Assembly (NCBI GenBank): GCA_024220505.1
Contig: JAKZZE010000008.1
Span: forward strand, 1,674,001-1,738,000
Direction: 5' to 3'
Origin: Rhizopus arrhizus
Lineage: Eukaryota; Mucoromycota; Mucoromycetes; Mucorales; Rhizopodaceae
Length of the DNA stretch: 64,000 bases
The notes below the pieces were generated by a model that saw only the letters and a program-made list of their open reading frames with translations, did no database searches and was not told where the DNA came from. Position numbers and translations under genes: made by a program. Positions 870-54,214 of this stretch are shown here, piece after piece. The number at the start of each line of letters is the position of its first letter. Within the stretch, counting starts at the first letter, position 1.

Positions 870-1105
870 CTAAAATAGATTTGGATATTGATAGCATTTG
901 AAGAAAATAAACTTCGTTTAGCAAAAAAACAAATGTCGTTTCCAGAAAAATAAATATCACTAACCTAAATGAAATTTTCGTTTAGGACATTTATTGTTGT
1001 CGCTTTGTACTTGTTTTAATGCAATACCTGTATTAAATGACCAAAGCGATAAACTTGGTGGTGAATGTTTTGTGATTTTCCTACTTTTGTTCTACTTAAA
1101 GATGA

Positions 1106-2812
1106 TCAGTCTAAAGGATATTTTCTGGTGAAAAGGCTAGGGCGTTCGCCAGTATTTCTCAAACTATTTAGGAACTTGAGAAAATTCAATACGTCTGCTT
1201 GATTGCGATTCTAAAGTCTTATTTTTATTCCTGTGGTTTGTTGTTTAAGACATGAGAGGCTCTTACACCTAGTACTGCATTAGTTATCAATAATTAATCT
1301 AATTTATTTTTTTCTTTGGATTACCCTAACAAACTATTGCATAGAACATCTGGCTTCTTTTTCCGTTGGTAAGGGCGAGGATTTGGCACAATTTTGAATT
1401 TTTTTCAATTCATTTTCACAGGTTGGGCAATGAGAAAACGTTTTGTATTCATTGATTAAGCAGACTACAAACCCATTCTTCTTTAGCATCCTGATTAATC
1501 CCTTGCTTCTTGTCGGTTCTTGATACTTGACATTAGGGGTGGACTAATCTCCAAAAACTAAGACAGCATCTTGGCCAAACTTTGCTTTTAAGTTACGCAC
1601 CAATTTTTGATCATTCTGGTCAAAGAAGAATTTACTTGAAAACTTCAATTTTCGAAAAGGTAAAAGTTGTAGCTTTTCTAATGCTGTACTGATAGTCTTT
1701 TTGTAATTGCTTTACTGTGACAGTCTATACATCTCCTTTGCCAGTCCTAGAGCTTTGTTTTTCTCACTGTCATCTAGTCTTTCTGAAATATGCTTTTGTT
1801 GTAGCATTATTTGTAGGTAGGTGGTATACAGTTGAGACTTTACAGAGCTATCAGTAGAGTAATTCTCAGGTTGAGGAAAAAAACCACGGATTCTTGCTAT
1901 GAACAGATTTCCATAATACAAATTACATTTTTGGTCGACTCGAAAGTCAAATTCGGATTCAGGGAAATATGTTTCTTTAGACTTTGTTGTCTTGTTTCCA
2001 TAATATTAGTACAAAGTGTTTTTTACTGATGCTCTTGTTTTAATGTATTGTACAAACTTTTTCAAGTTTACAGAGTTAGATTCAGATCTAGAAAGGATTG
2101 CTTCGGCTTTCTGGACCACAAAAGGTTGAGTACGCTTTCTTAAATATCTGAAGTGCCTTGAACATTTTTGAGCGGTTGTTCTTGGTAAATATAAGTGTTT
2201 ATTTTTCTTCAACAGTGCTGGTTTCTTTCATGCAGTAAAGTCCCGCCTTCTAGGGTCTATCAAGACATACTTGCCTTTAGTGCTCTTTAAGTCGGATTAA
2301 CCTAATCCTTTAATATGCTCTGTTTGATTACCGTCCACTTTCTTTTCAGTGTTGGTTTTAGACGACTTTCTGCTTGTATTAGTGTTTTGCTTTATTATGG
2401 AGACACCGACTCCATCTGTTTCGAGAGTTCCTTGGAACCGCAAAGACTTTTGAAATCCTTGATGCTTGAATGCCTTTTTATTTAGGTCTACGACGGCTCC
2501 CCATGTCTCAAACTTACTTCCTGTGTTTGGATTCTTTTTGCTCTTGAGAACATGGTAATGTATTATTTTGCTATTCAACATCATGTAGCAAGGAATAAAG
2601 GTGGTACGTAGCCGGAAACAAGTAAACTGTTTTGTCTGTTCAGCTTCAGACAGTTCAGCAAGCCTGAAGAAGGCTTTAAAATGGGTTTTTGGACAAGCCA
2701 TAACATCATAGTAAATTGAGTTCTCTTGAAAAGCGTAGTCCTCTGGGTAACTTGAGAGAAAACCATTTAATTGCGTTCTTGGTTGATCATCTAAAAGACC
2801 AACTTCAGGCAT
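1106..2812 (-). pseudogene. Decayed Fanzor (eukaryotic TnpB-like RNA-guided nuclease)
   Basis: Reading the minus strand across frameshifts gives the order of parts expected for Fanzor1. An N-terminal wedge-like region (2812-2300) ends with a TDGVGVS-type motif (here ETDGVGVSII). RuvC-I reads LIDPRRRDF, with the Asp at 2255-2257. A helical stretch (2212-2006) contains ARASVK-like and YLRKR residues. RuvC-II reads VLVFGD, with the Asp near 1547-1549. A zinc-ribbon half CPTCE lies at about 1415-1429, and a RuvC-III-like NRNQADVLNF lies near 1190. Stops interrupt it, for example right after RuvC-I (2228-2230) and directly after the RuvC-II Asp (1544-1546). The RuvC-III Asp position reads Asn and the second zinc-ribbon CxxC is not clear. 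Family assignment rests on motif order and spacing recalled from known Fanzors; a profile search would settle it. Confidence 0.72.
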
Positions 2813-2894
2813 CTCTTTTTTTGCAATGGCAAGCTTTACCTGATTGCAAGGTCAATAAATCTTCTTTCGGATAGTTTCTTTTATCGCTTTACTA

Positions 2895-3718
2895 CTATCG
2901 TAGGCTCGTCAATAATATTGTCGCCTGTTCTTTGCTCTTTGCCTCCTGTAAGCTTTCTTTTTTTTTTTGTTTGACTGTCTTCAATGCAGCCTCATCAATA
3001 AAAACGCAGTTCTTAGTGTAACCCAGATCCAAACCTTTCCACTTCATGAACCACTCGTATCTTATTTGCAAGCTACTGTCAGAGTTTCTTGTCATAAGAT
3101 CGAACGTTGGCTTTATTGAAATGAGCATGTTGTTTCTCAAGTGGTGGTTCATTTGAGACTTTGAAATCTTCAAGTCCTCAAACTGCGATTTCCGAGAAAC
3201 AATAATATCATCAGCACAAAGTTGTGAGTCTTTTTCTACTATTTGTTGAATGTGCTGCTCATGCTTAGGAGTCAGTGAGTTAGGTCAGCCGGGATTTCTT
3301 TGCAGCTTTTTGCAAGCTAACTTCCCAGTTTCTTGATAATATTTCTACCAGCGCATAGCAGTACGAGGATTAATTCCAAGATCCTTTGCATGCAAAGTCA
3401 CTTTTCCTCTTTCCGTAGGACTCTCAATCATTCGGTCAATAAATATCTCTCTGGTTTGGTCGTTGTAGTCTTTGTAGATGCTGCTTTCTTGACAACTTCT
3501 ATAGTCTTTTCTGTTGAAACTTTTGCAGTAGTTTCTTTCTCTGCTGGTTTGAGACTCAAGTAGGACTTTTGGCTTGTTATGGTTTCAAGTATTACATTTG
3601 GATCACTGATTTTGGCTAACACACCTTTCATCGGGTCGAAGACTCTCTCTATCCTTATTGTAGGCATTATTGTGTTCGTCTTTATAAAAAAAAATGTATT
3701 TTTTGTCATTTTATTCAA
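2895..3718 (-). pseudogene. Tc1/mariner-like transposase, N-terminal part, broken
   Basis: The minus strand begins with a basic leader containing the motif DPNVILETITSQKSYL, which is repeated almost unchanged in the element at 22 kb. A degenerate helix-turn-helix region follows. The stretch 3173-2895 contains KISKSQMNHHLRN and KNCVFIDEAAL; FIDE is the usual context of the first catalytic Asp of the DDE/D domain in this family. The frame is interrupted between 3428 and 3173. After the first catalytic Asp the homology stops, and the rest of the DDE domain is missing before the Fanzor begins. This is an inactive fragment. Confidence 0.7.
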
Positions 3719-3869
3719 TTGTTAGAGCGAAAGGAAAGAAATAAAGCTTTTACATCATAGCCGACAATAATCCCTCAGTAACCCCAATTTGACTTGGCCT
3801 AAAAAGACAAAATAAAACTTTAAGAGCGACAATTATTTGCTAGCAAACAGCCAAATATTTATCAGGTAG

Positions 3870-3913
3870 CGCCATTTGTTTTTAAAAATGGACAAAATCT
3901 ACCAGCCGCACTG
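3870..3913. repeat. Right terminal inverted repeat of the Fanzor-bearing element
   Basis: Read on the minus strand from 3913 inward, the sequence starts CAGTGCGGCTGGTAGA. This is close to CAGTCCGGCTGGTGGA at the ends of the 17.1-22.2 kb element. TA follows at 3914-3915, as expected for a Tc1/mariner target site. Confidence 0.55.
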
Positions 3914-3915
3914 TA

Positions 3916-5300
3916 TAACGCCTTACACTCGGATTTAAATCACCTTAATTACTTGTAAAGCTAGCTATTCAGTTTTCAAAGTCATTACAACCTAAAATTT
4001 GTAATTTGATTTTGCCAAGTATTCCAATAACTTATGTCACTCCGTGTACATTCGTATCTCTTCTATCATCCACTTCAGTTCGCTTGTATTACTGCCCAAC
4101 ACTTTATAGAAGTCTGTAGATAGCGTTTTTAAGTCTATAGATGGCTATTGACATTCGAGAGAAAGAGAGCTGGCACCAATCCGCCCTAGATTGTCTGTGC
4201 TGTTATCCAATGTTCAGTAAATTCCATAGATACCGTTTGTAAATCAACGTTTGGTGAATTGTATTAAAAGAAAGATGCAGAATAGTTACATCACCCCCAT
4301 TACGTATCTCAGCAGACTTGCTGCACAATCCATTCAAAATCATTTGGAATACTTTTCCGCTGCTGTTTAAAGGTCATAGTGACCGTTCTCACCCCTTAAA
4401 TTGACTGGCAGGACTTAAGAAAAGGAACCTTGATCGTTATAACTTTGTATGTTCCCGCCACCAACTATGCTACAAATGATTTGTGATACTGTCTAATGTT
4501 TAGTAAAAAAAAAAAAAAAAAAAAAAAAACTAGATACTGACACCAAGTCTAGACACACTGACAGCATTTAGTAGGAGGGGGAAGAATATTCCACAGACCT
4601 CTTTGTAAACTTCTTAGCGATCTCCCATTTCATTAGACTATGGTGCGTGATGCATAGAAATCGTAGATGTTTTGCATAGACCCATTGGTAAGCAATAAAA
4701 TATAAATTGTCATTCGAGTATTGTAGCTTCTTGATGTATATTTATCCATACTTATTTATATATTCATTTTATTGAGTAAATCAATGAAAATCAAATAAAA
4801 ATGAAGTGAGTCAAAGTGAGGGCGGAATGATTTTAGTGATAATGAAATGAACCAACATGTCACACAGAAGCAATATCTATATTTCCTTTAGAACTAACGG
4901 TTTGATGAGCGTGCGTTTTCTGATCAACAGCATACTCCATAGGTTTAGGACAACTATGCTCCTCAACTGCATGCCCCTGCTGCTCATTTTGAAAAAAAGA
5001 TGGGCTGTTCGTTTCAAAATGTAAAATGCGTAGAGATGAGGAAGAGCCAAGGGGTTCAAAAGCTGGCATGTTTAAATAGAAATGGATTTGTCATGTTTTC
5101 TTGTTCGAGATCCTTTCTTGGGTATGCGACATTTTCAATTTTATTACGCACCAAAGCTTTGTACAAATACGACTGTTCATCTAAAGCTTCTGTGACGTCA
5201 AAATTAGCGGGGTACGACTTTTGATTTTGAAAAAAAGTGTGTAGAATGACATGTGTTGAAAACTATTGTTACTAGGGCATTTGCTTAAAACGTTGATAAT
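3916..5300. other. Intergenic stretch with a poly-A tract and a doubtful coding relic
   Basis: A run of about 26 A lies near 4505-4530. On the minus strand, 5275-5070 stays open with a protein-like composition (contains NFDVTEALDEQSYLYKALV). A second open frame, 5069-4860, overlaps its end in another phase. This could be a gene relic or an unrecognised two-exon gene, but I could not build a start-to-stop model and do not call it. Confidence 0.35.
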
Positions 5301-5455: not shown

Positions 5456-6704
5456 ATGCATCGTAGAACAAGCTCTTTAGAGTATCACGATACAGGCACA
5501 CACTTTACCTCAAAATCACATACCCAATCTCCTTCTCAATTTTATACTTCTCATCATTCACTCCTTCCTCCACCTCCAAACTCAACAGACAAACCAGCTC
5601 ATTTGAATACATTTGTTCATAAATTATACAAGTAAAAGGAAAAGTCGATTTTGTTTATAGAATATTTAATCTTTATTTTTTTTATATACTTGACAGTATG
5701 GTCATTGATCCTTATTATCAACATTTGATATCTTGGTCCTATTCTGGTTCTTCTTTCATTGTTTGTAACCTCATGGAATTTTCCAAAGATGTCTTACCAA
5801 AGCATTTTAAACACAACAATTTTTCAAGCTTTGTTAGACAACTAAACATGTAACCATGACAAAAAAAAAAATTTATTATTTCTCGGATTTTAATGTCAGT
5901 CAGTCTCACAAAACCTTCTTTTCTCTGATTTAGGTATGGTTTTCATAAGGTCAACAAGTCACCCAGAGGCCATCGTACTTTGGCAGAAAATCAAATATGG
6001 GAATTTTCACATAAAAAATTCTTGAGAAATCGTATTGATTTATTAGATGATATTAAACGTAAAGCGATTGAAGTTGAAAACACGACGAAACGTGAAGGTG
6101 GTGGTGATGTTCAAAGTCATATGGCCTTGATGCGGGCATCTCAGACCGATTTGATTCAACAAATGCAAAATTTATACCAAAACCTTTCACAAGTAATGAA
6201 AGATATGCAAGAAATGAAAAATACACAAGAACAACAAGCACAGACAATAAAATCAATGGTTAATTATATTTCTCAGCAAAATGGAGGTAACATTCAGATG
6301 GTGTATGGTTTGTGTGATTTATCTGATTCCTTCTTTTAGGTCAGTTACCACCTGAACTAAATTTAGAACAATATGAAACGAGCAGTAAAAAGCAAACACC
6401 ATCTATTTTTATCACTTCTCATGATCCCTCTACAACACAACCTCATTTTTTAAATAATTTAGCTCATCGTTCTTCTCTATCACTCCAAACACAAAATTTT
6501 TCATTTGGCTCAACAAGATCCTTGGGTCACTTTGGTCATCCACTGTCACCTAGTTCAAGTCCAAGTCCAGGTATGCTTTTATCTGATGATGAATTTGATG
6601 CTACCAACTCTTTATATTCTCCTTCAAATTCACCACATACACCAAGACAATCCAATTCACACAATTCTTTTATGAATCCTTTAGATTCTTTATCACATCA
6701 ATAA
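5456..6704 (+). CDS. Heat-shock-factor-type transcription factor
   Basis: Four exons (5456-5631, 5697-5849, 5934-6286, 6340-6704) join in frame to 348 residues. The HSF DNA-binding domain covers about residues 50-155. It contains the winged-helix signature [16 protein letters not shown], split by the second intron, and the helix-1 motif FVHKLYNMVIDP. A heptad-rich region (about 165-220, rich in Q, M and L) fits the HR-A/B trimerisation coiled coil. The tail is Ser/Pro/Asn-rich with [13 protein letters not shown] patches and carries no recognisable second domain. HSF family proteins bind inverted nGAAn repeats in nuclear DNA; in fungi the same fold also occurs in Skn7- and Sfl1-type regulators. 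A receiver domain is absent, so Skn7 is excluded, but I cannot separate Hsf1 from Sfl1/Mga1-like proteins. Confidence 0.9.
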
Positions 6705-10974: not shown

Positions 10975-13900
10975 CTAATGAAATGGTGATTGTGAACGGT
11001 GGTATCCCTGTGGCACATATCCCATAGAAGGAGAATTCGTCATGGATGGTATATTGTAAGATGGCACCGAGTTAAATGCTGGTGAAGCCACTCGAGAAGG
11101 CTGGAATGGGTTTGAATATTTACTTTGTTGACTGTAATAAGAGCTTTGACTATATCCAGAGCGGTGAGAACCAACGGAAGCCGTATCATCAAAATAGGTG
11201 CCGTTATTCATGTCTTCATACATGCTTCGCTCATAGTCATCCCATGTCATCAGTGGTATCGACTTGCGATCGAATTTACCTTCGTCTGCCATGACTAACT
11301 TTTTGCCCTTGTCACCCATGACTACACGCGTGTTACCCCAGGAGAAATCATCAAAGTGCCAATAAGAATAAATGGGAATAGCAAACGAAAAGACAGGAAT
11401 GGCAAAAATGGATACAATCATCCATGCAATGTGCTCCCATTTTCGACGAAGCAAAAAGATAAGAGCCTGGAGACCGTACACACCGGCGATTGTAATGATC
11501 GACATCACAGGCACACCAGAGGTAGATTTGACCAAGGAATAGATGAGATAGATCAGGTACCCGACAATAGCAGGTTGAACCAAGGTACTCAGCAAATCGA
11601 GCATGACAACAAATCGCATAGAGAAACAACAGAAACCACACAATTGAGGCAAGAAGACGAGCTCACCCAGATTATGAATAGTCGAGTTGATCCAACGACG
11701 ACGTTGTGAAAGCAAGACACTCCATCGATCAGGCGCATTAGTGGCACATTGAGCATCAGAGACAAATTTGGTCTTGTAGGTAGGAAAGTGCTTGAGGATA
11801 AGCGTTGTCAGATAACGATCTTCGCCTAAATGAAGCAAGTTTTTTTTGTGCAGTGTGTCGACTTTATTGATAGCATAATCTTCAATGATCTGGTTGGATA
11901 TTAAAAGAGGTTGATTTTTCTGTGGTGAACGTATACGATACATACAGAAACAGCCAGGCAAACAAGTCACTGAACCAAATAAGGATTCAAATGCCTTGAT
12001 TAGATAATGTGAAATATAATATTCATAAACTTGAATCATCGTCACCCAACTGTCCTTTTCATTCGAAAGCACCGTCTCGCCACAGAGACCGATGATTTTA
12101 GCGTCATGAGTAAATACAGATACCAATCGATTGAGACCATCCGGCATAACCTCTGTATCTGCATCAACCATCATCACATACTCATAAAATCCAGGGTTGA
12201 CACCAATCACATTCTTGATTTGGTGATATAGCTCCAGTTCCATAGGTGTCATGGGTGAATTGAAGTGAACCTTGTTCAAGAACTGCATCAAGACCAGTTG
12301 ACTGTCTCGCTTACCACGGTTACCAGGCTTCTGTCGCTCACTTGGTTTACCTACTTTTACTACTACAATATAAGGAACGACATGGCCATGTGTTTCATAT
12401 AGACCAGAATAAATCTTGCCCATATTATGTTGTTTTTGTCCTTCACCAACAGAAAAGAACGAAAGCGCTTCAGGGTCCACATGAGGCTCAACTCCCAGAA
12501 TGTCAAGCACAATACGAGGCGTTGGTCGATCGTTGCCACCTCCTACAATCATACCATCGCAGATAATAAAGAGCAACTTGCGCTTATCATCATATTGAAG
12601 TGAAGCAATCGAATCAATTGTCTTTCTTAATTCATCTTCACTTTCAGTATAACATGGAATTTGACAAATGACAAACTTTTCATGCTTTTCTGGATCACGT
12701 CGTGTACCAAACTGAAGTGCTGCCAAGAACTTGAAGACAATGACCAAACAAAGAAAGACGGTGACAATGAGCAGTAGGTATTCGGCAAACAAACAACGAG
12801 CTGAATTACGTTGATCGACTGTACCCACATAATACAGATTTCTTAGACAGACCTCTTGTCGATACTTGACTTCCTTGTCCAAAGGAAGTGCATTCCAGTC
12901 ATTCGTCAGGTCCTGACCTGCCTTTTGGGTAAACAAGGTCACTACAGAATTATCCAAAAAGTTGAGTTCAGAGTTGTCGGGCTGACTTTGTCCAGCAGGT
13001 AAATCAAATCGACGACCACCCAGGATATAAAGTGTCAAGTCATAAACGTTGTTGTTTATAATAGCCCATGTACGAGGAGTGGTGATGCCAGACACATCGA
13101 CCGCATTTTCTGCCTGTTTCTTGATGTCCTTTGGTGTGTATCCCATATTGCCTAGCTTATAATTCTTTCGAAGATACATCATCTTTTCAAAGTACCAATT
13201 GGGCCTGGGATCGTCTGTGCTAGGCAAAAAATCGTGGTACTTTGCATTGCTATCCGTCAGATTCACATTGAAATCAAGTGTGACATAAGGATTCACTTGG
13301 CCTGTCACTCCTTGACATAAGGCAGACACTTGGACAGGGAACAAACTCGAAGCGTCTTTACCTCCGTATGCCAAGACTGCATTCTGTGGTATCACCTGAC
13401 TTGCCCAATGATGAGGAGCAAATTTTGTAAGGTCAAAGACCTCACCACGGATTGCTACATACGCATTGTCTTTATCCGCATGGTTTTGTAATTCAGATGT
13501 AGAGAAGACATCTTGATGAGGGCAAACCAAACTGCCAAAAAAGACCAAGAACCAAATGATGAATCCGGATGTCAAGAAAATGATTAGACAAAGTGTCATC
13601 TTTTCTCTCCATGCTATTTGAATATCAGGTCGTTTCATCTTGCCACATTTGACTAAGAATAAGGTTGGTATCCACCAAGTCATGAACCAAACAAAGTTGA
13701 GCCAGTGTCGTCGAACGCGTGATACCTGTTCTTCCTCTTCGGGAGCTTCTTCCTCTACGACGGCTGTAGGCAGCATTTGCTTCATTTCAGGGTTCATTTG
13801 ACTGTGGAACTCAGATCCATATTGCGATTCACTCTCAAGGAAGCTTTGATGCTGTAAATGATACAATTCGTCATTGTCAGATAAAAATGAGCGATTATCG

Positions 13901-16475
13901 TCCGTGTAAGCAGATCCAGGACCACGAGGTGGTTGTAAGCCGGCTGCCGCCGCCGCTGCTGTTGCCGCACCATGGCGGTAGCCATAGTCATTATTTCCAG
14001 CTAATAAAAACTCTGAATTGGAGCCAAAGGATACATGTGATAGATTATCAAAGCTTTGGTTTCTTTCCACATTGAGCATGGGTGCTGCTAAACTGGCCAT
14101 GTTCTCTGTATATCGATTCTCGTCTTTTTGTTTTTTCTGTTCTTCCTTTTCCGCACTTCTCAATTTGTTTTCTAATATTACCCAGGCAGCTTCTTCCAAA
14201 AATATCTTTTATAAGAATGAATACATTTTGTTCCTTATGAACATGTCTTTTTTATTTATATATATACCTTGGTTGCTCCCAGTTGGGCCTGTAATGAACT
14301 CCAACCAAAAAGTGCAATGGCTGCTTGGCATTGATCTTTAGGACTTGCAGACTGATCAATGCCTTCCAATAGGCTTGCATACCGTTCCAAGAATTCATCA
14401 TGAAAATAGGAGGTTGTATAACTCGTCTTGAGCTTTTCACACATCTGAGGTATCCCCCAGGCTCTGATCTGCGCCCTTACCTTTTGACTGTCAAACTGAT
14501 TGGGTGCTGCATGACCATTCGGTCTGATACAAAACACAAACCAAGGCACTGTTTCTTCCAATGTGACAAATAGGTCATCCAGCGATTTATTCAATTGAGA
14601 AAGGAGCATCGATACATTCTTTTTGGCATAGATCGGCCCTTCCTCAGGAATAGCAGTTGGTTCTAATGCTGTAGCAGACATTCGGTTGCGTTTGGTAGAT
14701 TTTGAGCGGCGCATGGATGGTCCACGAAGTGGCCCACTAGGTTGCTGAGCGTTCAAGATGGCATCTGCTTGCTTTGGATGGCGTTCAGTACTGATACTTT
14801 TATCTGCAAACAATTCTACAACAAAGGCATTGAATGAGGCTGGTGTATGTTCACTGCCCCGGATGAGCTGTACAAGTTCTGCATTTAAAATATCCTTGTT
14901 GGATTCCACAAAGTTATCGGGGCTGTAAGTTACCTGACCGGCGAAATGCTGCACGGAAAACAGACGTTGACCGGTTTCGGAGGATTTGAGAGAGAATGAG
15001 CTGTGGGTGTTGTTGTACTTGACAAAACTATCAAGCATTTGTAGATCCGTGTTTGAGGATTTGGCTGAACGGTTAGCTAGATCGGCAAGGCCGTGTTTGG
15101 GTCGAGCAAGCAATTCGACGCAGGCTTGATTATTAAAATAAGGAACGTCAGTCACAGGTAGCCCTTCCATTCTGTACTCTTCCGCATCGGCTTCAAAGAT
15201 CATACGTTGACAAAAGTGTTGAAGACGTTCATTAGCTAAATTGACACAGAATGAATTAAAGTTATTGTGAGATTGATTGTTTTGTAAACGAGGTCCCGGG
15301 AAATCCAAAACGCCAATAAAGCTGTGAGCTTTATCAGTGCATAGCTTGGTATTCAAGTATTCGACAAGCCAAGAGAATAAGAGTGAGTACAGGTCTCGAA
15401 CGATGCTATCCCTTTGCTGCGATGCGCCAAAGGAGTCTAAAATGATGGTGGTGACATCCTTTTTGATCATCAATGTTTTATAGGTCATCAGATTCTCTAA
15501 GGCTCGAGGATCGACACCCAAAAAGTCTGCACAAATATCCAATACGTCCGTATTCTTTACAAAAGCAGCCTCTTGCACAGTAGGATCATCTGTGAATTCC
15601 AATTGTCCTAAATGTAATAAACATGCCACAAATTGCCAAAGACGTGCCTGATATTTTTTGCTGATGCCTAATGTTTTCATTGCCTGCTTCAACTCCTTAA
15701 AGTGCTGACCCTCCTTTCCAGAAGCTGCCATACGTCTGGGTATATATCGATAAGTTAAATCATCATTGAGCTGAAGGATTGTTTTTTCTTCAGTGGTCGC
15801 TCCAGCAAAGATCTGATAAAACACATGAAAAGTCTGTTCGTGGCTTGGACACTGAGTCAGTCGAGATTTGTCTAATAAATAATTCAGGAGTTTGGCACCC
15901 GTCATCCGACCTCGCTCGTTAAATTGCAATTCAATGTACTTTCCAAATCGAGAGGCGTTATCATTTAAAGTTGTACGTGCATTACCAAATGATTCTAGAA
16001 CAAGCTGAGCACTGTTGATTTGTGATTGAAGTTTTGTTTCCTTTTTTTGTGAGGACAAGTGAACGAGGTGTTCAAGTATTAATCTAAAATTTTCAGTTTT
16101 TCCACTTCCGGTTTCTCCACTATAAATAAATCCGTCAATATCCATACCATTTTACATGCATCCTTATTACTTTAGTATAATAGACTGATCGATTCCGGTT
16201 CTTCTCATGTGTAAATAAGCTTGATTGGTTAACTTGTAGATATGTGTTGGTAAAGGTTTCAAGGAATCAGCGCTAGTGTCCTTATATTCAGTTACATAAG
16301 GAAGACTTTGTTGAGGTACTGGCTTGTAAGGGTTCACGGCTACTAAGGCAGAGTCACTGATCTTTGAATAAAGCACATTGTTTGCAAAATTTGACTTTAA
16401 ACATTGTGTCAAAGCATCTTCAGATTGTTGTTCCTGATCACATAGATCAAACTGACTTTTTAATTTGGTTGCCAT
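10975..16475 (-). CDS. Chitin synthase with N-terminal myosin motor domain (class V type)
   Basis: Three exons (16475-16171, 16119-14268, 14205-10975) join in frame to 1795 residues. Residues 1-718 form a myosin motor-like domain. Its P-loop GETGSGKT is created across the 51-nt first intron, and its end resembles TKVFL (here TKIFL). The chitin synthase part follows: membrane segments, a cytochrome-b5-like segment (AIRGEVFDLTKFAPHHW), then the glycosyltransferase domain with VDADTEV, EDRYLTT (about residue 1512) and QRRRW (about 1553). Multiple membrane helices follow. It polymerises N-acetylglucosamine into chitin at the plasma membrane; in filamentous fungi the motor helps deliver the enzyme to hyphal tips. 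The Ser/Tyr-rich tail ends without the DEK_C domain usual in ascomycete class V/VII enzymes. The gene is convergent with the M13 gene, 180 bp apart. Confidence 0.95.
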
Positions 16476-51478: not shown

Positions 51479-54214
51479 TTAATTTTGAAGGACGATAGGA
51501 CCTGAAGTAAACACTTCCCAATCCTTTTCATTCTTTGCCTCACCAAACAACTTCAAAGCAGACACACGGAAGCGATAGGTACCAGCAGGTGCAGGAAGAG
51601 CGACCGCACCAGCAAAGGAAGTCGGCACATACGTACCGTCCCAGACAAAAGAAGATTCATAAGACTTGTCTGCATTAAAGTTACGGGACAAGTAAGCGGT
51701 ACCGGTAGAATAGAGACCCAAGGATTTACCGGTGCTGTCGATCAGCTCGGCCTTCATGAGACGTGTGGGCGTCAAGAGTCTGTAGACAGTGAAAGGAGCC
51801 GTAGTGGACTTGCTGCGATCGTACGTATAGGTATCGTTCACGCCATAAGATTGGGTGCTGCTGCCGACATAGGGATAGCCATCGTCAAAGATGGGCAAGT
51901 CCTTTTGTTTGCCTTGGACACCGACATAAGGAATACGGATGTCCTTGCCGTTCTTGGTTTGCTTGGATTTCAAGGTGATGTAACCACCATAGTAAATGTG
52001 CTTCTTGGCATCGGTCTTTGGAGGCGTCACGGTGACCGTGATCGTTTTGGATTGACCGGGTGCGAGCTTGAAGGTCTTGGAGGAGAAACGCAAGTTGGCG
52101 GCGGCGGCCACGTTCACGGCAGGCTCGAGAGGTGTATAGCCCGTCTTGGAGACATCATAGGGAGAGATACCGGTGGAGACTTGGTTGACGAGTTCATATT
52201 GGATCGTCTTTGAACCGTGGTTGGTGACCTTGAAGGATTGTTTTCTGTATTGGGTGGTAGCGGTATCATTGAAGCTGATCTGACCGGGCGTGATGTGTGT
52301 GCCTTGGGTGATGGCATCATAGACTTGGACCAGACCGGCACCGGCACGAGCAGGACTGTCGATCGAGTCGGCCTTGAAGACAGGGCGAGGGGAAGCGTAG
52401 TTTTGGAATTGTTCATGGACGAATTGGACGCTGTCCTTCTTCTTGCCGTGGGCCTTGACGTAGAGAGCGACCGAACCGGCCACATAGGGAGAGGCCATCG
52501 AGGTACCGTCCATGATACCCCAACTGTCGAGATAACGAGGCAAGGTAGAATAGATGCGACCGCCGACACCAGCAATATTGGGCTTCAAGATCAATTCGGC
52601 ACTGGGACCCAAGCTAGAGAAACTAGAGACCGAACCCGCATCCGACACAGGGACCACACTCTTTCCAGCAGAAAAGTCAATCGAGACCTTGCCCTTCTTG
52701 ACAGCAGCCAACAGGCCCTCACCGTCTTTCAAACTGACCATGACCGAGGCCAGGCTGGCTCCGGTCGTCTCAGCACCCGAGAGAGCTTCATCCGCATTGT
52801 CGTAGATCACGACCGAAACAGCACCGGCCGAGGCAGCATTGTTGACCTTGTCGGCAAATGAACAGCTACCACGCTTGACCAGTGCCACCTTGCCCTTCAC
52901 GTCTGGAGAGACAGCCGAGGCAGAACAGGCATCGTTCGTGGGGTTATCGACCTTGGAGGCAATGGCCAGATCGCCATTGGTCAATTTGGCACTCGTGCTG
53001 GATCCGCTGCTGAGAACATAGGGTATACGATCGGCAAAGCCAGAGGCGATGAGCGTCGTGGTGTTGGTATAGTCGTTTTGAACAGAGGCGACCGAGAAGG
53101 CGCCCGTGGCCGTACTGGGAGAACCGATCGTGTACGCACCTTGTGCACCCGAGTTACCGGCCGAGATCACGACATGGACACCCTTGGCCACGATCTGATT
53201 GACGATCGAGAGTTCGGCATCCGAGGCCACTTCGACCCAGGGGTTGGTGGATCCCAAACTGAGGTTGATCACATCGACGCCAGCATCGTACGCCATCAAG
53301 AGACCTTTGACGATCACATCGTCACCGGTCACACCCGTACAGCCAAAGACACGGTACATGGCCAGGTTGGCTTCAGGAGCAACACCGGTAAAGTTCTAGA
53401 GAGACCTCTGTCAGTAAAGCCCCAAACCCCTCCTCTTTCACTTACCGTCGCAGCATCATAACCCGCAATGATACCCGACACATGCGTGCCGTGGCCACTG
53501 GCGCCTGAACCAGCACCACATTCGTCCAGAGGATCCGAATCAGGCACGGGCGTGTTGGAACCCGTGTACTTGTCACCGACCAGGTCATAACCAGTGACCA
53601 CCTTGTAGCCTTTACCAAAGCCACCGCCCAAGGCAGGATGCTTATAATCGATACCTAACCCAATCCGTCAGCGTCCTTCCGTCCCCACCGCTCTCTCCGT
53701 TCTTACCTGTATCTAAAATGCCGACCAAGACACCCTTGCCCTTGTTCTTGAGCTGACTGTGCACAATGTCCACTTGAGTCATGTGATGAGGCAAGATGGA
53801 CTTCTTGCTCTTGCCCTTCTTGATCAGTTTCACCTCAGGACGAGGCACCTTTCTGACGGGCGAAATGTATTCGACATCGGAACGATCCAAGATGCTTTCC
53901 AGCGTGCTCTTCTTGACGTCCGCATCATCGGTATCGATCGTGACAGACATGCCCTTGAAGAAGGAGTGGTTGTAGCGTTCGTGGACCTTGATATGAGCGC
54001 CCTTGACTTCTTGCATCGATTGAGAAAAGAGCGTGCCGGCCGAACTGGACGCTTGTTTTTTGAATCCGACGATATAACGGCCTGGGATGACATCTGAATT
54101 GGCGTGTCTGAATTTGGGATGGTGAAGGTTGACTGCTTCTGCCGTCAAGACAAAGACAGCCATACAGACACCTGCCACATAAAGAGGAAGGATGGTGAGG
54201 GTTGATTTTTTCAT
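51479..54214 (-). CDS. Secreted subtilisin-like serine protease (S8) with PA domain
   Basis: Three exons (54214-53707, 53654-53446, 53395-51479) sum in frame to 877 residues. A signal peptide ([20 protein letters not shown] and on) and an I9-type propeptide ([13 protein letters not shown]) precede the catalytic domain. The triad is Asp about 168 (GILDTGIDYKHP), His about 224 (GHGTHVSG) and Ser about 538 ([11 protein letters not shown]); the oxyanion Asn is in [13 protein letters not shown] protease-associated domain is inserted between His/Asn and Ser (residues about 330-470, with [20 protein letters not shown]). A C-terminal fn3-like region contains [16 protein letters not shown]. This is the layout of Vpr/minor extracellular proteases of fungi. 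GC content is clearly higher than in the flanks, as for a highly expressed gene. Confidence 0.95.

Follow-up and report, generated by a model that had tools for sequence, protein, structure and literature searches.

Positions 897 to 3913 of the window, the 64,000-nucleotide stretch of Rhizopus arrhizus DNA that was analysed, are a dead Tc1/mariner transposon that carries on its minus strand a degraded transposase followed by a degraded Fanzor1 gene, and sister copies of this element lie next to a TATA motif that is concentrated on one side, 5' of the Fanzor gene. The position of the motif is that at which the recognition motif of the nuclease (TAM) would lie. The Fanzor1 identity, the decay of the window copy and the reality of the one-sided motif, taken jointly, are held at a probability of about 0.85. 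The window element itself is an ordinary addition to the known Fanzor1/mariner elements, and the one-sided, family-specific motif is the more interesting part. A structurally solved type of Fanzor1 and the remnant of a transposase lie together here between well-defined inverted repeats, and one genome has dozens of such copies. The parts of the window copy are as follows.

3914..3917, adjoining the right repeat: TATA, composed of the TA duplication and the TA of the TAM-like motif
897..3913, minus strand: Tc1/mariner-type transposon remnant; homology to sister copies begins at 897 in most rows of the comparison, and the right end is CACTG at 3909-3913
3890..3913, minus strand: right terminal inverted repeat, which is the 5' end when the element is read along its genes
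2895..3721, minus strand: remains of a broken transposase, consisting of its DNA-binding part and the beginning of the DDE domain, a protein match with stops; DDE_3 is found in the longer copy L051
2890..2897: internal deletion junction, common to copy L022 on the same contig
1325..2897, minus strand: long Fanzor1 exon with the C-terminal part of the recognition lobe, RuvC, the FRI insertion and the first half of the zinc ribbon, from matches to PpFz1 (9cf0) and SpuFz1 (8gkh)
2411..2419, minus strand: conserved TDG motif that PpFz1 and SpuFz1 have as well
2240..2260, minus strand: RuvC-I, IDPRRRD (IDPGRRD in copy L026)
1865..1876, minus strand: PQPE, a loop in the FRI insertion whose aligned counterpart in PpFz1 has the prolines for cyclophilin binding
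1544..1561, minus strand: VLVFGD, conserved, not the catalytic glutamate
1418..1456, minus strand: INEYKTFSHCPTC, with the catalytic RuvC-II glutamate (the "alternative" Fanzor position) and the first Cys pair
about 1275..1324, minus strand: predicted last Fanzor intron, GT..CTAAT..AG, which splits the zinc ribbon and is also present in the open copy L026
1106..1274, minus strand: last exon, with the second Cys pair CKSLSC, RuvC-III and the natural stop at 1106-1108
1181..1210, minus strand: RuvC-III, NRNQADVLNF (NRDQAAVLNF in L026)

The order of parts on the minus strand of the element is right repeat, transposase, Fanzor, 3' noncoding region and left repeat. The earlier note had placed a Fanzor relic at 1106 to 2812, a span that lies inside the element and covers about half of it; the Fanzor homology extends to 2897. 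At the junction at 2890-2897 a deletion has taken out about 2 kb, comprising the 5' part of the Fanzor, the spacer and the 3' part of the transposase, and the eight junction bases align to both sides in a longer copy. Since the window copy and L022 have the same junction, the deletion probably predates the separation of the two copies. Only the right end is kept in the window copy; the left terminal inverted repeat is gone, so that the guide end has been lost too. The longer copy (L026/L051) spans 5,156 bases, from CAGTGGGGCTGGTAAATTTTGTC at one end to CACTG at the other. Its transposase has a 265-residue open stretch with stops directly before and after it, and it matches DDE_3 at 43.5 bits (cut-off, 28.6), whereas the window retains only the start of this domain. 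Inverted repeats of the form CAGTG/CACTG with TA on both sides were found in 16 of 19 paired copies of the window family. These repeats, the flanking TA and the DDE_3 domain identify the element as Tc1/mariner, in line with the mention of mariner in the earlier note.

When three Fanzor pieces of the window were searched singly against solved structures, all three matched PpFz1, the Fanzor1 of Parasitella parasitica (PDB 9cf0-9cf3), with E values of 2.4e-67, 1.1e-33 and 1.1e-15. Against SpuFz1 (8gkh) the first piece matched with an E value of 7.1e-10 and the third with 0.007, and the second gave no match. At the level of sequence it is this comparison with solved Fanzors that settles the Fanzor1 identity, as the earlier note had claimed. 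A profile match, which that note had proposed as a check, is equivocal when taken alone: PF07282 (TnpB zinc ribbon) scores 13.5 bits, under its curated cut-off of 26.3. The predicted intron divides the zinc-ribbon domain. The profile match falls on the exon with the first half of the ribbon, and the open sister frame L026 scores a similar 14.2 bits, the window and sister translations both stopping at the intron.

The five motifs that had been read from the minus strand (TDG, IDPRRRD, VLVFGD, CPTC and NRNQADVLNF) are all present in the order claimed. The assignment of VLVFGD to RuvC-II was mistaken, however: VLVFGD is a conserved neighbour, and the catalytic glutamate lies instead in INEYKTFSHC. 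Passages of the SpuFz1 study give D383 and E541 as catalytic residues (PMC10432273), and in the SpuFz1 alignment, counted by hand, E541 in DEYKTSS corresponds to INEYKTFS in the window and to INEYKTSS in L026. This "alternative" position of the glutamate in Fanzors is described in passages of PMC10711439. In L026 the RuvC D-E-D set, DPG and the alternative glutamate are complete (IDPG, NEYKTSS and WNRD); the window copy retains the first D and the E but has R for the G of DPG and N for the third D. A C4 zinc ribbon is present between the glutamate and the third aspartate, formed by CPTC and CKSLSC with the intron between them. The FRI insertion with its PQP loop aligns to that of PpFz1, PQP being found in both the window and L026. 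The cyclophilin-binding prolines of PpFz1 are P614 and P616 according to passages of PMC11423790; PQPE was matched to them by counting residues by hand, and cyclophilin binding by the family is putative. The window family resembles PpFz1 in the FRI insertion with a PQP loop, DPG, the alternative glutamate and the zinc ribbon, and FRI is absent from most Fz1 proteins according to the same source (PMC11423790, in part).

The Fanzor frame at 1106-2851 contains 10 stops in 582 codons, the remaining minus-strand frames having 41 and 50, and it is therefore a decayed gene rather than a chance reading frame. Six premature stops lie in the long exon, including the two that had been noted before, three residues past IDPRRRD and immediately past VLVFGD. 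One more lies in the last exon just before NRNQ, and the frame is disturbed near the 3' end of the long exon. Of the breakage that separates the zinc-ribbon half from NRNQADVLNF, a part is the predicted intron, which the open copy L026 has as well. There is next to no chance that the Fanzor of the window copy is still live, or was silenced only recently, and is not a fossil. The frame is kept across most of 525 codons save for the stops, and the active GtFz1 has a natural N at its third catalytic position too (passages of PMC11423790), so that the N alone is no proof of death. The stops and deletions are: against a live copy stand the six premature stops of the long exon, the one of the last exon and the loss of the 5' part, the left repeat and the guide end. 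With its six long-exon stops, altered RuvC-III aspartate, deletion of about 2 kb and missing left repeat, the copy is as dead as the earlier note had judged it.

That note had also supposed that intact copies might exist elsewhere in the genome, and sister copies with open Fanzor frames do exist. A genome search with window positions 1000-3900 gave at least 49 matches (the best 40 of 145 candidates were scored), and six sister copies keep a single open Fanzor frame, measured from stop to stop, of 838 codons (L023, L026 and L029), 821 codons (L024 and L025) or 748 codons (L027). The L026 translation matches PpFz1 at 1065 bits over its residues 141-838 and SpuFz1 with an E value of 3.5e-40. Proteins of Rhizopus delemar and R. 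arrhizus head its 156 relatives in the protein collection, with identities that reach 96%, as fits a Rhizopus host; two from Parasitella are 66-69% identical to it. Over a stretch of 525 codons compared among 25 sister copies, eight copies are without a substitution stop and seven of these (L023-L029) are also free of gaps, while the window copy has six stops. A simple count among the seven, insertions not being counted, gives a dN/dS of about 0.31; one of them, L028, is split between two frames by a frameshift.

Insertion sites of the window family were read from 39 right-end loci (L052-L090), 21 left-end loci (L091-L111) and loci from the genome search. For the right ends, 41 loci (L052-L090, L021 and L022) were taken; in 7 the repeat was not found, 6 decayed ends were set aside and 28 were kept, of which 27 begin with TA, the exception being L079 (TT, then TA). 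For the left ends, 50 loci were scanned, 46 ends were found and 44 have TA, L022 being dropped as a locus at which the scan took the other end. On the TAM side, 5' of the Fanzor, TATA stands at 26 of the 27 ends with an intact repeat and TA, compared with 11/44 ends with TA on the guide side (Fisher p 1e-9); in the window at large, 8.6% of TA dinucleotides are part of such a TATA. The six decayed right ends were excluded by spellings chosen post hoc; two of them read TATA and one more has TA, and when those that retain TA are added the count becomes 28/30 (p 3e-9). End pairs were matched by coordinates, and among the 16 with TA on both sides TATA occurs on the TAM side only in 10, on the guide side only in 1, on both in 4 and on neither in 1 (p 0.012), so the paired test is weaker than the unpaired comparison. 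In pair L111/L061 the TATA is on the wrong side. Read in the direction of the genes, a site consists of 5'-TATA, the element and then TA-guide. Of the copies for which both ends are readable, the six best preserved all have the motif if their right end is whole. In two pairs (L024/L064 and L049/L057) the right repeat is truncated at its tip and runs directly into DNA that is also found ahead of the left end, giving duplications of about 9 to 11 bases; these junctions resemble what repair of a cut end from the flank would leave.

A second Fanzor family in the same genome has a motif of its own. It matches PF07282 at 32.3 bits (cut-off, 26.3), its frames contain VDPG, DEYLTS and WNRD, and its N-terminal frame gave no match among solved structures. 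The repeats, [TA]CAGTTAAAGAAACTAGG, were located by pattern, with 45 sites at no more than 3 mismatches and 0 in a reversed control, and the TAM side was assigned from the position of the Fanzor. There are 14 TAM-side ends, 3 of them without an abutting TA (ATTG once and ATTAA twice); ATTA stands at 10 of the 11 with one. On the guide side, where L014 was omitted as its repeat end is missing, ATTA was counted by eye at 3/16 ends (Fisher p 3e-4; background, 8.3%). Ten complete pairs have ATTA on the TAM side only in 8 cases and on the guide side only in 0 (p 0.008). Eleven of 12 paired repeats are only 3.35 to 3.65 kb apart, a space that is nearly filled by the Fanzor, and the family probably encodes no transposase (one copy, L113, whose 5' end is replaced, was read at length). 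Two further groups were left out of the counts. In the candidate family L001-L009 the 3' repeat is clear, and the 5' ends are heterogeneous and repeat-like in 2/8 5' loci. In the 617-residue Fanzor family represented by L112, about 800 bases upstream are common to 5 places and the insertions are not independent.

A Fanzor-free mariner family served as control. Its element is about 1.7 kb long, with the repeat [TA]CACTATTTTCAG and a transposase of 443 residues that is 37-38% identical to that of the Fanzor family over about 150 residues. TATA is found at 9 of its 32 ends (6/12 on the side 5' of the transposase, 2/12 on the 3' side, p 0.19, and 1/8 unoriented), and ATTA at 1/32. The control was enlarged by 17 ends, before which TATA stood at 3/8 of the 5' ends and 0/7 of the 3' ends. 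It shows that TATA is favoured by such mariner elements generally, and a milder, transposase-borne lean to the 5' side that would exist without a Fanzor may be part of the bias. The TAM side of the Fanzor family, at 26/27, exceeds the 6/12 of the control 5' side (p 0.002).

The cause of the one-sided motif is less clear than its existence. One explanation, which we regard as possible and advance tentatively, is retention guided by the Fanzor. In live copies, the Fanzor would use an RNA made from the 3' end of the element with the flanking host DNA as guide. Excision of the element by the transposase would leave a re-emptied site with motif, TA and guide match, which would be the target of the Fanzor, and repair of the cut from a copy still holding the element would keep the transposon in place. 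Such retention would succeed only at motif-bearing sites, and the bias would be explained. Both families here, and Spu-1, the element of SpuFz1, are accommodated by reading the motif as a Fanzor TAM. The wider proposition, that the Fanzor determines where eukaryotic DNA transposons persist and that TATA and ATTA are the respective TAMs of the two families, is equally provisional and rather doubtful as it stands.

The odds of retention are lowered by the enlarged control, which leans to the 5' side as well. A reading for which the chances are not far from even is that the one-sided motif is an integration preference of the transposase, perhaps tuned to the Fanzor TAM. The control frequency of TATA lies above the 8.6% background, and the copies whose Fanzor frames are best preserved carry the motif, which fits such a preference at least as well as retention; the intact copies and the control lean together point to integration or to a very fast filter. 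The motif of the window family, mostly TTATA, contains ATA and is longer than the TAM of PpFz1, which is ATN in passages of PMC11423790. On either side, however, the repeats can be aligned inward from CAGTG, so that a symmetric transposase dimer should hardly distinguish the two sides, and the control lean is itself not significant and weaker than that of the Fanzor family. The second family, moreover, has its own motif, although it probably encodes no transposase. Integration preference has a bacterial parallel in IS200/IS605, where such a target preference acts at integration.

It is improbable that the extra TA on one side is part of the element itself, with a right end of CACTGTA and the second TA as the true duplication. 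This would account for a near-fixed TATA without any preference, and L079, with TT and then TA, could be read in that way. The equal distance at which the inverted repeats align on the two sides speaks against it, as does L061, in which one side is TACA and the opposite one TA. Where the repeat end was lost, in L024/L064 and L049/L057, apparent host DNA reads CTATAG and GTATATG, which is suggestive though no proof. For the second family, a TA stands immediately outside ATTA at just 2/10 ends; there, the repeat-abutting TA must therefore be the duplication, and the motif belongs to the target.

The same layout of motif, 5' repeat, Fanzor, 3' repeat and guide, with TA in the motif, is found in Spu-1 of Spizellomyces punctatus, where a conserved CA precedes the 5' repeat and the SpuFz1 TAM is CATA (Saito et al., PMC10432273, in part). 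The extra dinucleotide before the 5' repeat is thus CA in Spu-1 and TA or AT in the families described here. The Spu-1 repeats enclose no transposase, as stated in passages of that paper, whereas a Tc1/mariner transposase remnant lies inside the repeats here. Passages of PMC3627910 (Bao and Jurka, 2013) describe PGv-1, PUl-1, PUl-4 and HMa-1 as having Fanzor1 with a mariner transposase or mariner-type repeats and TA duplications, as here, so that Fanzor1 in mariner elements, and in Rhizopus, has been known since 2013. The Mucorales Fanzor elements in those passages are MuDr-type (9-bp duplications) and one unclassified family; the paper has four Rhizopus Fanzor families, among which the window family may be. 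The passages of PMC11423790 on PpFz1 make no mention of a transposase or of an insertion-site analysis. Titles and abstract openings in the mostly open-access literature gave no report of insertion-site motifs of Fanzor families in Rhizopus.

The bacterial IS200/IS605 TnpB elements likewise have the TAM at the left end and take the guide from the right flank, and TnpB is proposed to bring the element back to sites from which it was excised; these elements have an HUH single-strand transposase, whereas the element here is a DDE cut-and-paste transposon in a fungus. The biological role of Fanzors was stated to be unknown in passages of a 2023 paper (PMC10432273). Two families with different one-sided motifs offer a cheap TAM prediction for each and a direct test of retention. 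If guided retention were true, the insertion sites would be genomic evidence of RNA-guided homing or retention for eukaryotic cut-and-paste transposons, with the TAM legible from them.

The placement of an omega RNA at the 3' end of the element, with the guide in the flank, fits. Candidate 3' RNAs fold no better than shuffled sequences (z of -0.9 to -1.7 in the window family and +0.7 to +1.6 in the second family), and conservation of the 3' noncoding region, among mostly dead copies, is not clearly higher than that of four-fold sites. For empty sites, 16 joined flanks were searched against their own genome, and among the best 40 of 293 candidates, which were scored, none spans the junction by more than 5 bases. 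Targeting of tRNA genes was considered and dropped, as the clustering of weak matches near elements may stem from the search windows; ARAGORN (bacterial code) found no tRNA in 37 loci, and 16 loci gave no Rfam match. Short repeats lie close to some insertions (the right flanks of L069, L026 and L039), one of them tRNA-like by eye.

The family at L112 is a second PpFz1-like Fanzor family, with a 617-codon frame at L112:2593-4446 and an E value of 2e-150 to PpFz1. It has several near-identical copies with common flanks and may spread inside a larger unit. At L112 (contig C12) and L113 (contig C18), Fanzor copies adjoin tyrosine-recombinase or reverse transcriptase/RNase H frames with the look of DIRS elements (weak Pfam support). 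A tie between Fanzor and tyrosine-recombinase retrotransposons, for which these two loci were candidates, was rejected as inconsistent across copies. In two places (C12:1991929-1998023 and C39:1245796-1251890) repeats of the control mariner stand 6,095 bases apart, and between them lies sequence related to the L112 retrotransposon frames.

Elsewhere in the window, a heat shock factor DNA-binding domain (PF00447) extends over two frames at 5623-6339 and is probably split by an intron, and two long frames at 10975-16151 resemble, by eye, chitin synthase and a myosin motor head. A frame at 51479-53395 resembles a subtilisin-like protease, also by eye, and the 2-kb bin at 52001-54000 has a GC content of 0.55, compared with 0.46 and 0.34 in its neighbours.
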